A DNA stretch of 64,000 bases. It comes from Sphingobacteriaceae bacterium (GTDB taxonomy: Bacteria > Bacteroidota > Bacteroidia > B-17B0 > Aurantibacillaceae). The stretch is taken from the NCBI GenBank assembly GCA_002319075.1, contig NVQB01000001.1, forward strand, positions 1,426,001 through 1,490,000. Direction: 5' to 3'. The position numbers and the translations under genes are program-made. The notes under the pieces were generated by a model. The model was not told the DNA's origin, did no database searches, and saw only the letters and a program-made list of their open reading frames with translations. Numbering within the stretch: position 1 is the first letter of the stretch; each line of letters opens with the position of its first letter. Shown here piece by piece: positions 1,829 through 56,275 of this stretch.

Positions 1829-2809
1829 ATGAAAGCACTTGTTCAGAATTTTACAAATCAATTAAAGGAAGCAAAAGCTATTGCAGAGAAGGCCGTTATT
1901 TCGGAAAGTAAGAATATCAAAAACATTGTAATTACAGGTCTTGGCGGTTCAGGAATTGGCGGAACAATTATTTCAGAACTTATCTCTGATTCTTGTACTG
2001 TTCCTGTTACTATTAATAAGGATTATTTTATTCCTGCATTTGTAAATGAGTCTACTTTGCTTATTGTATCAAGTTACTCTGGAAATACAGAAGAAACATT
2101 AAGTGCTTTGGAAATTGCTATTTCTAAAAAAGCGCAGATTGTTTGTGTTACAAGCGGTGGGAAAGTTTTAGAATTAGCAAAACAACACCAGTTTGATTTT
2201 ATTGAAATTCCAGGCGGTATGCCTCCTCGTTCTTGCATAGGATTTGGTTTGGTAGAAATGATTAAAGTGTTGGTGGGTAAAGGTTTTGCAGACAAAAAAT
2301 TATTTGCTGACCTTGATAAATCGATTGAATTATTGGATAAAGAAAACGAAGCGATAAAAGCAGAAGCTCAGAAAATCGCTGGAAGTCTTATAAATAAATT
2401 TCCGATTCTTTATTCTTTGGGAAGCTGCGAAGGAACGGTTGTTAGGTTCAGGCAACAAATAAACGAGAACAGTAAAATGCTTTGCTCGCACAATACTTTT
2501 CCAGAAATGAATCATAATGAGCTTGTTGGCTGGACGACTAAAAACGAAGATCTGGTTGTTATTACTTTTCATACTTCTTTTGATTACGCCCGCACAAAAA
2601 AACGCTACGAGGTTTGCAAGCCCATTTTTGAAAAATACTCCAGCGGTGTTATAGATATAACCGCAAAAGGCAGCAGTAAGCTTGAACAATTTTTTTACCT
2701 GATTAATATTGGCGACTGGATTAGCTGTTATGTTGCAGATCTTCGTGGGATTGATCCAGTGGAGGTGAATGTGATTGATAAGCTGAAAGCAGAACTTTCT
2801 AAGTTTTAA
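1829..2809 (+). CDS. Bifunctional phosphoglucose/phosphomannose isomerase
   Basis: 326 residues, the usual length of the bifunctional PGI/PMI family (about 300-340). An N-terminal SIS sugar-isomerase domain shows the sugar-phosphate loop GLGGSGIGG (residues 37-45) and SYSGNTEET (82-90). The C-terminal half holds PEMNHNELVGW (225-235), carrying the conserved Glu and His region of the PGI/PMI C-terminal domain. The enzyme interconverts glucose-6-phosphate or mannose-6-phosphate with fructose-6-phosphate and so links glycolysis with mannose-containing polysaccharide synthesis. It is monocistronic: about 140 bp follow the NUDIX gene and a 470-bp gene-poor stretch comes after it. Confidence 0.9.
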   Translation: MKALVQNFTNQLKEAKAIAEKAVISESKNIKNIVITGLGGSGIGGTIISELISDSCTVPVTINKDYFIPAFVNESTLLIVSSYSGNTEETLSALEIAISKKAQIVCVTSGGKVLELAKQHQFDFIEIPGGMPPRSCIGFGLVEMIKVLVGKGFADKKLFADLDKSIELLDKENEAIKAEAQKIAGSLINKFPILYSLGSCEGTVVRFRQQINENSKMLCSHNTFPEMNHNELVGWTTKNEDLVVITFHTSFDYARTKKRYEVCKPIFEKYSSGVIDITAKGSSKLEQFFYLINIGDWISCYVADLRGIDPVEVNVIDKLKAELSKF

Positions 2810-2831: not shown

Positions 2832-3205
2832 GTACCGAAAAGTTTGACACCAATTTTACGAATTACACTAAAGGTTAAGAACAAGGATAATGCCTAATCA
2901 AAGGATTAGTGCCTGACTAAATTGAAAAAAGGGGTAAAACCAACTCCACGAATTACTGTATAACGCTGAGTGATTAATATATCTTCCTAGTAATGAATGA
3001 AGGTTTACTATACAAAGAACTATCCTACCAGATCGTAGGAATTTGCATGGAAGTTCATAGTATTTCAGGTAAGGGGCATAGCGAGAACTTTGGTGAAGAT
3101 TCTTTGAAACACAAAAGAATTGTCTTGTGATAAATTATGTCTCGTCACTAACCACTTCATTACAATTAGTGTTATTAGTGAAATTTGTGTCTGTGTACCA
3201 AAAGT
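2832..3205. mobile_element. Decayed inserted element with 26-bp inverted ends around a GxxExxY remnant
   Basis: The gap between the isomerase gene and lipB contains GACACCAATTTTACGAATTA... at 2846-2871 and its imperfect inverted partner at 3166-3191 (about 22 of 26 bases match when one is reverse complemented). Just outside lie the direct repeats GTACCGAAAAGT (2832-2843) and GTACCAAAAGT (3195-3205), which could be a target-site duplication. Between the ends sits a 45-codon reading frame resembling the start of a GxxExxY protein. There is no transposase. I infer a non-autonomous inserted element or a repeat-bounded gene cassette that has decayed. The structure is read directly from the sequence, but mobility is inference. 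Confidence 0.45.
2993..3130 (+). pseudogene. GxxExxY-family protein, N-terminal remnant
   Basis: A 45-codon frame begins MNEGLLYKELSYQIVGIC and continues MEVHSISGKGHSE. This closely follows the N-terminus of GxxExxY proteins (TIGR04256, a small family thought to relate to PD-(D/E)XK nucleases), which typically read LLYK-L-Y-IVG--MEVH---GKG-SE. The similarity stops exactly at the name motif: G-H-S-E is present but the Tyr is lost, and a stop follows 13 codons later. The family is normally about 125 residues, so roughly two thirds is gone. It lies between inverted repeats (see the enclosing element). A functional microprotein is possible but unlikely. Confidence 0.6.
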
Positions 3206-3280: not shown

Positions 3281-4021
3281 ATGGAGTCGCAATTTCAAAA
3301 TAAAACTATTTTATTTCAAGACCTTGGGGTAATGGACTATAAAGAATGCTGGGATTACCAGGAGTCTTTATTTAATGCTACCATTCAACAAAAAATCGCG
3401 AATCGTGATCTTCCGGAAGAGCAAAAAGTACAGACAAAAAATCATTTGTTATTTGTGGAGCATCCGCATGTTTACACGTTGGGAAAAAGTGGTGATGAAA
3501 AAAATCTTTTACTGAACGAGCAGGAACTCATAGATAAACACGCGAATTACTATAAAATAAATCGTGGTGGCGACATTACTTATCATGGTCCCGGTCAGCT
3601 TGTGGCCTACCCTATTTTGGATCTCGATAATTTTTTTACAGACATCCATAAATACTTACGTTTACTTGAAGAAACGATCATTCTTACTTTAAAAGAGTAT
3701 GGCATTAAAAGTGGCAGAAGTGCAGGAGAAACAGGTGTTTGGCTGGATGCAGATGATAAAAGTAAAGCGCGTAAAATTTGTGCGTTCGGAGTGCGCTGCA
3801 GCCGCTGGGTTACTATGCATGGTTGGGGATTTAATGTAAACTCAGATATGAGTTATTTTAATAACATTATTGCCTGCGGCATTCAGGATAAAGCAGTGAC
3901 TAGTCTAGATAAGGAACTTGGCAGACCAGTGGACATGGAAGAAATTAAAGAAAAATTAAAGCGACACTTCAGTATTCTTTTTGATGCTCAGCTCACAGCA
4001 CCAGCCGGTGCATTGAAATAA
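3281..4021 (+). CDS. lipB: Octanoyltransferase LipB
   Basis: 246 residues from the ATG at 3281; an in-frame TTG six bases earlier would add two residues but lies closer to the -7 box, so I prefer the ATG. LipB moves octanoate from octanoyl-ACP to lipoyl-domain lysines in the cytoplasm, the first step of protein lipoylation. The substrate loop NRGGDITYHGPGQ is at 94-106, the catalytic Lys in RKICAFG at about 165 and the acyl-accepting Cys in IIACG at 199, all intact. Length fits the Bacteroidota family. The stop codon directly abuts the stop of the convergent T9SS gene, with no room for a terminator between them. Confidence 0.95.
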   Translation: MESQFQNKTILFQDLGVMDYKECWDYQESLFNATIQQKIANRDLPEEQKVQTKNHLLFVEHPHVYTLGKSGDEKNLLLNEQELIDKHANYYKINRGGDITYHGPGQLVAYPILDLDNFFTDIHKYLRLLEETIILTLKEYGIKSGRSAGETGVWLDADDKSKARKICAFGVRCSRWVTMHGWGFNVNSDMSYFNNIIACGIQDKAVTSLDKELGRPVDMEEIKEKLKRHFSILFDAQLTAPAGALK

Positions 4022-7933: not shown

Positions 7934-8060
7934 GATTCAGATTTTAGTTAAAACTAAAGTAAACTAAAAAATAAACCCTGCAAGCGGGATCTTACACTAT
8001 TTCGCGCCAGGAACCTGAGAATGCAGTATAGCATGTTATAGTGACAGAGGGATATAGATG

Positions 8061-8215
8061 GGTTCGCGCAGAGACGCTATGAACGCAAAGGGTTTAGAAA
8101 TAGAGCGTGGTAGATCTTAATGGTTCGCGCAAAGACGCTAGGAGCGCAAAGGACTTATCAATAGAGCGTAGTAGGGTTTTTAAGGGGTTCGTGCAAAGAC
8201 GCTATGAACGTAAGG
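8061..8215. repeat. Three ~31-bp direct repeats, period 61-64 bp
   Basis: The word GGTTCGCGCAAAGACGCTAT followed by GAACGCAAAGG occurs at 8061-8091, 8122-8152 and 8186-8215 with a few substitutions. The spacers share GAGCGT-GTAG. The array fills the 315-bp gap between the divergently placed propeller gene and the convergent 3' end of the short-chain dehydrogenase. No gene is seen in the gap. Similar 'GCAAAGACGCTAxGAACGCAAAG' words are common dispersed repeats in bacterial intergenic DNA. Their function is unknown. Confidence 0.8.
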
Positions 8216-27049: not shown

Positions 27050-27365
27050 TCTCGACTACGCTCGACCTGACATCAGACTACGCTCGACCTGACATCCGAC
27101 TACGCTTGACCTGACATTGCTAACACACAAGCCGGCTCAAAAGAGTCTTAACTCTTTTGCCCTGCTCGACCTGACATTGCTAACACACAAGCCGGCTCAA
27201 AAGAGTCTTAACTCTTTTGCCCTGCTCGACCTGACATTGCTAACACACAAGCCGGCTCGACCTGACATTTCTGGCGCGATCGCTGGCCTTAACATCCGCT
27301 GGATGTTAATCCTGCTCGACCTGGCATCGCTTGCACGATTGCTTTGCGGAGTCGAGAAGGTTCAC
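27050..27365. repeat. Tandem and palindromic repeat cluster upstream of leuS
   Basis: This 425-bp gap holds no gene. It begins with CTCGACTACG words (27051-27110) in ~22-bp steps, then a 60-bp unit repeated exactly at 27121-27180 and 27181-27240, with a degenerate start before and a truncated copy after. Each unit carries a 9-bp hairpin (CAAAAGAGT-CTTA-ACTCTTTTG). A second hairpin, TTAACATCC-GCT-GGATGTTAA, lies at 27289-27309. The last ~60 bp before leuS are ordinary AT-rich sequence. A 97-codon open frame through the repeats is an artefact of the tandem unit. Confidence 0.85.
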
Positions 27366-30299: not shown

Positions 30300-30658
30300 C
30301 TATGCACGAATTGATAGTCGACTGCACTCGAAAAGAATTGATAGTCGACAAAGTTCGTATTGACAATAGACAAAGCTCCGCCTGAATTTCCGCTTTGTCA
30401 TTCTGAGCAGGACTAACATCCGGTGGATGTTAGGGCCAGAAAGTGCGTAGTCGAGATTTGTCATTTCGAGCGTAGTCGAGAATTGTCATTTCGAGCAGGA
30501 CTAACATCCGGTGGATGTTAGGGCCAGAAAGTGCGTAGTCGAGATTTGTCATTTCGAGCGTAGTCGAGAATTGTCATTTCGAGCAGGACTAACATCCGGT
30601 GGATGTTGGGGCCAGAAAGTGCGTAGTCGAGATTTGTCATTTCGAGCGTAGTCGAGAA
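30300..30658. repeat. Repeat cluster downstream of leuS: three 88-bp units with hairpins
   Basis: The leuS-tetR gap holds no gene. GAATTGATAGTCGAC occurs at 30308-30322 and 30335-30349. From 30405 an 88-bp unit is repeated at 30405, 30493 and 30581 (the last one truncated) with almost no differences. Each has a 9-bp perfect hairpin CTAACATCC-GGT-GGATGTTAG and two copies of the word GTCATTTCGAGCGTAGTCGAG or close variants. The hairpin is nearly the same as that at 27289-27309 on the other side of leuS, with only its outermost base pair changed. Confidence 0.85.
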
Positions 30659-55174: not shown

Positions 55175-55504
55175 TCAGATAAATTCTTCTTTCTTAAAAT
55201 AATCGATAATAGAATCGATGATCAATTTATTTTGCTGCTTTGCGTCCAGAAAAGGAAGGTTCTCTTTTAACTTCCAGTGCGGCCAACCGTCACCGTCATT
55301 TCCTTCAAATTCATAGAATCCATAAGGCTCCAGAAGCGTGCAGATAGCAACGTGCATGATTTCCAGCTTCTGATCTTTTTTATATTTTTGAAAGGGCTTA
55401 CCGAGTTCCTGTAATCCTATTAAAAATAATATAGAATCGTAATCGACTTCACTATCGAAGCGCTCTTTTAATTTTTTTTGTAGTATCTCCCAGTCACTTG
55501 CCAT
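55175..55504 (-). CDS. Hypothetical protein, small and acidic
   Basis: 109 residues from the ATG at 55504 (MASDWEILQKKLKERF). A GTG at 55546 would give 123 residues, but those extra codons are mostly dispersed-repeat sequence (see 55522-55550), so I prefer the ATG. No signal peptide or membrane segment is visible. A hydrophobic core (YDSILFLIGLQELG) and the aromatic-rich EPYGFYEFEGNDGDGWPHW are the most distinctive parts. The family is not recognised. It lies downstream of engB on the same strand, separated by the inverted repeat. Confidence 0.65.
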   Translation of the reverse strand: MASDWEILQKKLKERFDSEVDYDSILFLIGLQELGKPFQKYKKDQKLEIMHVAICTLLEPYGFYEFEGNDGDGWPHWKLKENLPFLDAKQQNKLIIDSIIDYFKKEEFI

Positions 55505-55521
55505 TTTCAATTCGTCTATTT

Positions 55522-55633
55522 CTGCCACAGATAACGCTGATTCCACAGATATTTACTTAAAATCATTTATTAATTTGTCCTTATTCTACTTTAGCCCAAT
55601 ACAAATCTGCGCAATCCGCGTCATCTGTGGCTA
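55522..55633. repeat. Inverted pair of ~29-bp dispersed repeats between engB and the hypothetical gene
   Basis: The reverse complement of 55522-55550 (ATCTGTGGAATCAGCGTTAT then CTGTGGCAG) aligns with 55605-55633 (ATCTGCGCAATCCGCGTCAT then CTGTGGCTA) with about 22 of 29 bases equal. The arms are 54 bp apart and can form a long hairpin. The right arm overlaps the engB stop codon and the left arm covers the GTG start alternative of the downstream gene. Confidence 0.7.
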
Positions 55634-56275
55634 CTCTTCTTCTTCATCCGCTAAATCCTTCTTGGTTTCACGTGGCGGCCTGTTCTCATTAATTTGAAAA
55701 TCTATAAATTCAAGAATATCTTCTTTACCTGATTTTTTCTCTGCAGAGCTAATAAAAGTATTGGGCATTTCTTCCCACTCTTTTAAAAGTTCTGTTTCAA
55801 TGTTCTTTATATTTTTTGCTAATTCTGCTTTTGAATTTTTATCTGCTTTTGTATAGATAATCGAAAAAGGAATTTCCGTTTCGCCACACCAGGTCATAAA
55901 TTCAAAATCAATTTTTTGTAAAGGCAAACGACTATCGATCAATACAAAAAGGCAAACCAGGGTCTCACGTTTTTTACAATAATCGTAAATGATAGTTTCA
56001 AACTTCGAACGGTTGTCCTTACTTGTTTTTGCAAAACCATATCCCGGTAAATCCACAAGATACCACGAATCATTAATGGTAAAGTGATTGATGAGCTGTG
56101 TTTTTCCGGGAGTTGCTGAAACCTTTGCTAATTGTTTATTGTTGCACAACATGTTAATCAGTGAAGACTTTCCAACGTTACTTCTTCCAATAAACGCGTA
56201 TTCCTGCAGCGTAGGCTTCGGACATCCGAAAATACTTGAGGCACTTTGTTTGAATACTGCTTTCTTAATTTCCAT
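55631..56275 (-). CDS. engB: Ribosome biogenesis GTPase EngB (YsxC/YihA)
   Basis: 214 residues. G1 loop GRSNVGKSS at 30-38, G3 DLPGYG at 75-80 and G4 TKAD at 142-145 are exact. The C-terminus is extended by ~15 acidic residues (TKKDLADEEEE). EngB assists late assembly of the 50S subunit. Its ATG lies within the end of the upstream acyltransferase gene (11-bp overlap), so the two are probably co-transcribed. Confidence 0.96.
   Translation of the reverse strand: MEIKKAVFKQSASSIFGCPKPTLQEYAFIGRSNVGKSSLINMLCNNKQLAKVSATPGKTQLINHFTINDSWYLVDLPGYGFAKTSKDNRSKFETIIYDYCKKRETLVCLFVLIDSRLPLQKIDFEFMTWCGETEIPFSIIYTKADKNSKAELAKNIKNIETELLKEWEEMPNTFISSAEKKSGKEDILEFIDFQINENRPPRETKKDLADEEEE

Follow-up and report, generated by a model that had tools for sequence, protein, structure and literature searches.

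On balance, we favour the reading that a short stretch between two genes of a Sphingobacteriaceae bacterium is a decayed copy of a small element, the nuclease of which binds arrays of its own short word, cuts DNA there, and so aids the copying or movement of the element; this is a joint reading of the results given below. The copy lies in the window (the whole stretch of 64,000 nucleotides that was analysed), and its features are collected in Table 1. The full element would be about 0.5 kb long and consist of one GxxExxY nuclease gene between two mirror-image word arrays. The nuclease, perhaps as an oligomer, would bind arrays of its own word class and cut DNA at them, upon which the element and its gene-less derivatives would be copied or moved, and it would serve these elements as a transposase serves MITEs or RAYT serves REPs. 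We infer both the mobility of the element and the binding of the word by the nuclease.

Table 1. Features of the window copy, of its flanking genes, and of a second element in the window
Feature	Position	Strand	Remark
Left neighbour gene, pmi	1829..2809	+	presumably phosphoglucose/phosphomannose-isomerase-like; conserved flank of site
Left GTACC(G)AAAAGT direct-repeat copy	2832..2843	+	weak evidence only
Left inverted arm	2846..2871	+	degenerate CACNAAT-class words; 22/26 to right arm
Partial inner copy of left arm	2928..2956	+	72% direct repeat of 2838-2866
Remnant GxxExxY (PDDEXK_3) ORF	2993..3130	+	45 aa; alignment to L316
Right inverted arm	3166..3191	-	minus-strand words CACAAAT, CACTAAT, CACTAAT; pitch 9 bp
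Right GTACC(G)AAAAGT direct-repeat copy	3195..3205	+	weak evidence only
Right neighbour gene, LipB-like	3281..4021	+	presumably lipoyl transferase LipB-like; conserved flank of site
Second, gene-less mini-element	55524..55631	.	inverted CRCNGAT-word arms, 44 nt apart

The window copy and its site in related genomes

The two arms of the window copy, for which the initial annotation had given a match at about 22 of 26 positions, were found to have exactly that identity when the left arm was compared with the reverse complement of the right one. No second occurrence of the left 26-mer with up to 3 mismatches was found in the 64-kb window (0 of 100 shuffles). The sequence inside had been described as the first third of a GxxExxY protein, and a GxxExxY-like ORF is indeed present, but it retains the C-terminal 14 residues as well, directly after the N-terminal 31. 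In an alignment to the 125-aa intact relative L316, the ORF corresponds to residues 1-31 and 112-125, with the middle 80 residues missing and the frame maintained; the catalytic D and ExK of GxxExxY are within the deleted part. The ORF gave no match to the PF13366 and TIGR04256 profiles and was placed by this alignment. L316 (the same place as L080) comes from another species of the genus (G011), where it occupies the corresponding gap between these neighbour genes, surrounded by words of the same class as the left arm (CACNAAT). Because the ORF keeps both termini of L316 without the middle, the window copy is more than a truncated gene, namely an internal-deletion derivative of a GxxExxY element. 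The deletion removed the catalytic core and would have brought the full element closer to a mini-copy.

The nested layout had been interpreted as that of an inserted element, and comparison with the empty site in relatives agrees with this: of 30 loci, with that of the window counted among them, 12 had a pmi-lipB gap that was almost absent, and an intact GxxExxY element was present in one (L080, of the CACNAAT class). Elsewhere the gap contained a decayed gene of that class (L087), inverted arms of this class with no gene between them (L090), one arm alone (L079 and L099), arrays of other classes (CACAAAG in L078 and CACATAG in L093), or other sequence; the gaps were read by eye, and words were counted in 26 of the 30 loci. 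A second site (L186-L215), between two genes that we take to encode Fe-S proteins, is an insertion hotspot. The gap there was 9-69 bp in 11 of 30 loci, whereas 6 of 30 had a GxxExxY element with CACTAAG arrays, 5 of 30 had a four-helix-bundle (PF05635) ORF framed by inverted GGCAGT arrays (by eye), and the remainder had other genes or remnants. The four-helix-bundle ORF of L197 was judged by eye, and the other five such ORFs coincide with PF05635 matches. At both sites presence and absence were compared between species, with one genome per species in the collections, and at both the elements sit behind the upstream stop codon. By eye, a RelE/ParE-like toxin-antitoxin pair (L202 and L210) and a HAD-like gene (L192, L204 and L208) were also seen at the second site.

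The GTACC(G)AAAAGT direct repeat that flanks the window copy, proposed as a possible target duplication, does exist, but at a chance level of about 1 in 100 (an equal match occurred in 1.1% of swapped flanks and in 0.7% of random window pairs), and no excess of such repeats was found at 68 other loci. In those 68 loci the flank-to-flank direct match had a median of 10, equal to that of swapped flanks. The only excess was a short one, confined to one or two offsets (4-mers at offset 1, 9 versus 3.2 in shuffles with a maximum of 7), with nothing longer, and a palindromic TTAA would fit the excess at offset 1. On these results, we rejected a target-site duplication as something general to the elements.

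Mirrored word arrays and the proteins encoded between them

The proposal that GxxExxY genes are bounded by inverted repeats was upheld, and it applies more widely than had been suggested. Another four PF13366 matches are present in the window genome, of which one contains an internal stop, and each was seen by eye to lie between inverted repeats of its own word. For 74 loci of the window genome and of related genomes, the best inverted flank match had a mean score of 46, compared to 26 in flanks swapped between loci; only 26 of the 74 were above the 99% level of the swapped flanks, a control that is raised by words shared between loci. For loci from named genomes and one viral contig, the control consisted of 528 placements at other positions of these contigs, and it was found that 61 of the 75 usable loci were above the 95% control level and 51 of 75 were above the 99% level (6 of 81 loci were left out because their flanks were too short). 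The named-genome set is the best 80 of 586 confirmed candidates and leans to relatives of the 10 query proteins. According to their titles, the records belong to the Bacteroidota, Ignavibacteria, Chlorobi, Planctomycetes, Verrucomicrobia, Acidobacteria, and Chloroflexi, and further to the Alpha-, Beta-, and Gammaproteobacteria, a cyanobacterium, the Nitrospinota, and others, with clear arms not in every group. The viral locus was the only one recovered when viral contigs were scanned once, the query being an alignment of 10 proteins.

At least two CRC[AGT]RAG words on each side, with the correct polarity on both, were present at 75 of 145 GxxExxY loci from many phyla, compared to 0 of 990 control placements. 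When words were searched for with no motif set beforehand, mirrored words were found in 80 of 145 loci versus 1 of 106 controls, and words of direct (wrong) polarity in 24 of 145; 10 of 155 loci were omitted from these counts for contig edges or an ORF of less than 100 aa. Clear arms were not detected by these criteria in 14 of 75 loci (inverted match) to 70 of 145 loci (CRC[AGT]RAG words). As for the case against a connection, a ubiquitous repeat with no tie to GxxExxY, the word was found to be a common intergenic repeat but one that is tied to GxxExxY genes, and AATTAGTG/ACACTAA, which the initial annotation had named as the repeat, is one among several clade-specific words. Arrays are frequent (8 in 464 kb of genome), so that an ordinary intergenic repeat might be thought to lie beside GxxExxY genes by chance; this is refuted by both locus counts and by the agreement of spacing between the two arms, and we regard its probability as negligible.

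In each arm a 7-bp word is repeated in 2-4 copies, with a pitch of about 8-13 bp and, as a rule, a gap of 1-6 nt between copies, and the arrays of the two ends mirror each other in orientation. The word is mostly CRCNRAK, the commonest form being CRC-N-R-A-G, and in other clades it ends in GAT, AAT, or TAG. Among 25 loci with an equal word number of three or more per arm, the spacer lengths were equal in both arms in 22 (e.g., 1-2-3, 3-4-3, and 2-5-3), compared to a shuffle mean of 3.8 and a maximum of 10 in 2000 shuffles; only 29 of 83 RAG-class loci have at least three words in both arms. In a wider set, the spacing was equal in 37 of 42 loci. The letters of the spacers agreed between arms at only 59 of 131 positions (45%), and the arm mismatches had no G:U polarity, with G:U-pairing versus mirror-image counts of 18 versus 19 in words and 13 versus 18 in spacers; the search pattern itself contained the fixed letters of the word. 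To judge from this pattern, the arms look like a row of protein-binding sites with a set geometry, and not like a stem kept for RNA pairing.

It was found that GxxExxY proteins are encoded in at least 49 of the 60 genomes searched near the window genome, and two copies of one clade, identical at 99 of 135 positions, are present at two sites in G001. Among 44 aligned proteins, the G, E, and Y of the name motif and residues E27, D67, and E77-x-K79 were invariant, and Q91 and Y95 were conserved in at least 90%. Such a residue pattern is typical of a RecB/Cas4-type PD-(D/E)XK nuclease. The D...ExK residues of that superfamily are thus D67, E77, and K79 in all 44 proteins, and are missing from the window remnant. 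All five of the intact proteins tried were above the curated cut-off for both TIGR04256 and PF13366. An AF2 model had a pLDDT of 96, and its best six chains in Foldseek were those of SSO0001 (which we take to be a Cas4), lambda exonuclease, and LHK-Exo, with a probability of 0.92-0.99 and E values of 0.007-0.02, none reaching 0.001, a resemblance that is modest but consistent. Weak matches to Cas4 were obtained by HMM and by sequence, and among solved structures no relative close by sequence was found. On grounds of residues and fold, GxxExxY is predicted to be a minimal PD-(D/E)XK nuclease of the RecB/Cas4/lambda-exonuclease type. One paper describes a pipeline that missed a cas4 gene and gave a GxxExxY domain instead (PMC8934634), and no description of the role of GxxExxY proteins was found in the literature searched.

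The class of the word follows the clade of the nuclease. On a protein tree, the word classes GAG, AAG, GAT, and TAG required 16 changes, compared to a shuffled mean of 42.9, and none of 200 shuffles was as low; this association holds among the 102 labelled of 151 proteins (49 have no word class), and the shuffle tests are generous here, the rows being related to each other. Three rows with an internal stop (L126, L147, and L169) were kept in the tree with X. A CACGAAG clade unites Planctomycetes and a Methylococcales record, and a CACAGAG clade contains Alpha- and Betaproteobacteria, three of its members having the spacing 1-1. The genes of the window genome have the different words CACTAAG, CACAGAG, CACATAG, and CGCAGAT, and the window remnant has a fifth, CACNAAT; because several words occur in this single genome, the effect is not one of host composition alone. 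The motif G[KR]G[FL].E.VYKDAL is common to all seven CACNAAT-class genes found in the genus, and the YKDAL part, otherwise seen in CACNAAT genes, is also present in one GAT-word gene (L333).

Inverted arrays are not confined to nuclease genes. Proteins of the PF05635 family (23S rRNA intervening-sequence protein, 23S-IVP) were found in 52 of 60 genomes, and the inverted flanks of PF05635 loci were above the 95% control level in 21 of 28 and above the 99% level in 14 of 28, with 2 of 30 loci at contig edges left out. Because these are genes for four-helix-bundle proteins that are not nucleases, a nuclease is not needed for the layout, and we read the GxxExxY and PF05635 loci as a single design to which two small proteins, unrelated to each other, belong. 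The PF05635 genes of L216-L245 were seen to lie between inverted arrays of many short words that are unlike the GxxExxY words, for example TTAGGTG, GGTTTCA, and GGCAAAT.

An element acting at the level of RNA, like the 23S intervening sequences (IVS), would have arms that pair in the transcript and are cut by RNase III, with the nuclease as a passenger. As described in PMC4990558, the Coxiella 23S IVS has terminal inverted repeats that form a 28-bp stem with the S23p ORF inside and tandem heptamers, GACAGAT, before this ORF. Together with the arrays around PF05635 ORFs and the good RNA fold of the gene-less window mini-element (z of -6.4), this gives such an element some appeal. However, the spacer letters match poorly although the spacer lengths agree, the mismatches are without G:U polarity, the word follows the protein clade, and two other stretches were not unusually stable (z of -1.45 for L034:1250-1345 and 0.36 for window positions 2840-2960, the latter not spanning both arms). 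We therefore consider an RNA-level element unlikely, and an RNA stem as the selected feature is unsupported by the spacer and mismatch counts. In Rfam searches of 18 loci, only two SAM riboswitches reached the gathering score, with no listed match on the arms and no rRNA match listed.

Gene-less copies

In a 464-kb sample of the genome, made up of the 64-kb window and a further 20 stretches of 20 kb each, 8 arrays of at least three words were found, compared to none in shuffles. One is the right arm of the window element; five of the other seven have a close inverted partner, and two are solitary. The partnered arrays have local inverted scores of 30-40, compared to 14-21 elsewhere, and as two of them are each other's partners, they make up four mini-elements. 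No GxxExxY gene was seen between the arms of these four, ORFs being listed for the window one only. The window mini-element has its arrays at 55526-55550 and 55605-55629. No longer inverted repeat was found when the window was scanned for arms up to 700 nt apart, and the mini-element lies between a gene that we take to encode an EngB/YihA-like GTPase (55631-56275) and a small ORF (55175-55546) that overlaps its left arm. Two other kinds of repeat were noticed in the window: a tandem repeat at 8060-8210, with a period of about 61 and degenerate CGCAAAG/ACGCTA words, is possibly a decayed array of the same kind, and arrays of another repeat (TGTCATTTCGAGCGTAGTCGAGAA and GCTCGACCTGACATTGC) occur at 27054-27269 and 30395-30658 with inverted copies nearby.

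A fixed word pattern had matches in 26 of the 37 genomes of the genus, with 24 in the window genome, 65 in G003, and 63 in G028; these matches may overlap, and their number is not equal to the number of arrays. The reversed pattern had at most one match per strand in any genome of the genus. All 63 matches in G028 belong to the CRCDRAG type, most of them being CGCAAAG, and the single PF13366 match listed there (L033) lies between CGCAAAG arrays and has an internal TAG inside the name motif. Arrays of a class were more numerous where a gene of the same class was found, both for CRCNGAT (p of 0.002) and for CACNAAT (p of 0.0006, or 0.0014 without G000, which was counted by hand as a CACNAAT-gene genome on the basis of the window remnant), these values being uncorrected for relatedness. 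The underlying gene list contains at least 84 loci in 30 genomes, with nine listed places left out and 30 of the 84 having no class. Matches of the CACNAAT class were also present where no gene of that class was found (12 in G035, 8 each in G001 and G026, and 7 in G019), as were 22 of the CRCNGAT class in G022, a genome with 9 PF13366 matches of which only 4 were read. Conversely, 0 CACNAAT matches were present in G011 although it has a gene of that class.

The number of pattern matches correlates with the number of GxxExxY genes (0.64), with the number of Y1 transposases (rho of 0.57), and with genome size (0.57). A Y1/IS200 or RAYT-type transposase might accordingly move the palindromic elements in trans, with the nuclease gene as cargo, and a flanked gene together with palindromic intergenic repeats does resemble REP/RAYT. 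Nevertheless, the window genome, which is 99.98% complete, has its 24 pattern matches and no Y1_Tnp match, so that a Y1 enzyme is not needed there despite the correlation, and the word follows the nuclease clade; we think movement by such an enzyme very unlikely.

The genome G008 contains 16 gene-less copies of 79-177 bp with the ends GCCAC...GTGGC and one gene copy with the same ends, in 17 places that were read and that cover 19 of its 21 CACNAAT matches. The mean pairwise identity of these copies was 94% in the first 27 nt inside the ends, compared to 29% outside; some pairs share flanks (maximum 78%), and the right-anchored profile is slightly blurred because the right end of L339 was set at 140 instead of 79 bp. 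The left flanks are rich in T and the right ones in A. There seems to be a preference for insertion into T-run/A-run surroundings and, for the two sites that were compared between species, directly after the upstream stop codon. By eye, many of these mini-elements (L336-L352) lie between two small hairpins with T-runs inward, as between convergent terminators, and the right arm of L338 and of L352 is interrupted by another small palindrome (CCCGATAGCTATCGGG-like).

The positions behind stop codons, the hairpins and T-runs around many G008 copies, and the lack of a general target-site duplication are what would be expected if the arrays were fixed regulatory or terminator-like sites bound by the nuclease, the gene being domesticated or used in defence and nothing moving now. 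Against this stand the occurrence of the same site in empty, filled, and reduced form in sister species, the 16 similar, dispersed, and sharp-ended copies in G008, and the spread of single-word clades over phyla, and we judge fixed sites to be a rather unlikely explanation.

Relation to known elements and significance

REP/RAYT systems (REPtrons) consist of dispersed intergenic palindromes and a small gene that has inverted copies of such a palindrome on its two sides. The GxxExxY loci likewise have a gene flanked by inverted copies of a dispersed palindrome, but the enzyme is predicted to be a PD-(D/E)XK nuclease (PF13366), whereas that of REP/RAYT is a Y1 HUH transposase, for which the window genome has no match; furthermore, each GxxExxY end is an array of 2-4 short words, the spacing of which matches between the two ends, and the word classes span phyla. 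As in MITEs and their parent transposons, the ends are inverted, gene-less copies share them with a gene copy, and the window copy is an internal-deletion derivative, but the gene is not of a known transposase type and there is no consistent target-site duplication. The predicted fold and the active-site motifs are those of Cas4, RecB, and lambda exonuclease, the difference being a stand-alone domain of about 125 aa, with no solved relative close by sequence, that is encoded between arrays.

The 23S IVS with S23p/IVP genes in Coxiella and Leptospira have in common with the GxxExxY elements a small ORF between terminal inverted repeats, and the Coxiella IVS has its tandem heptamers (PMC4990558). 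They differ in that the GxxExxY elements lie between protein-coding genes at the two sites studied and not in 23S rRNA, encode another protein family, and have arms without a sign of selection for RNA pairing. In their working the GxxExxY elements are therefore closest to REP/RAYT and MITEs and in their layout closest to the 23S IVS, and because they have no Y1 enzyme and are not in 23S rRNA, they can be filed under neither REP/RAYT nor 23S IVS. No description of arrays around GxxExxY genes was found in the literature searched, most subscription papers being outside its scope, and the word strings did not occur in it.

As a wider and more tentative proposal, which we do not press as far as the reading of the window copy, the GxxExxY elements might be a new, phylum-spanning class of minimal mobile elements. 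A 125-aa RecB/Cas4-like nuclease would be the sole mobility protein, the word and its spacing would be the address, word classes and nuclease clades would co-evolve, and swarms of gene-less copies would be driven by the nuclease; the 23S-type four-helix-bundle genes would then be a second, unrelated protein that has adopted the same ends.

The cognate word arrays provide a concrete, testable substrate for GxxExxY proteins, and they would account for many of the palindromic repeats that lie between genes in several phyla. The 23S IVS are called selfish in PMC4990558, where their mobility is discussed as a hypothesis, and a common design with these selfish 23S rRNA intervening sequences is suggested. 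The pairs of nuclease and word are a natural series for reading a recognition code.
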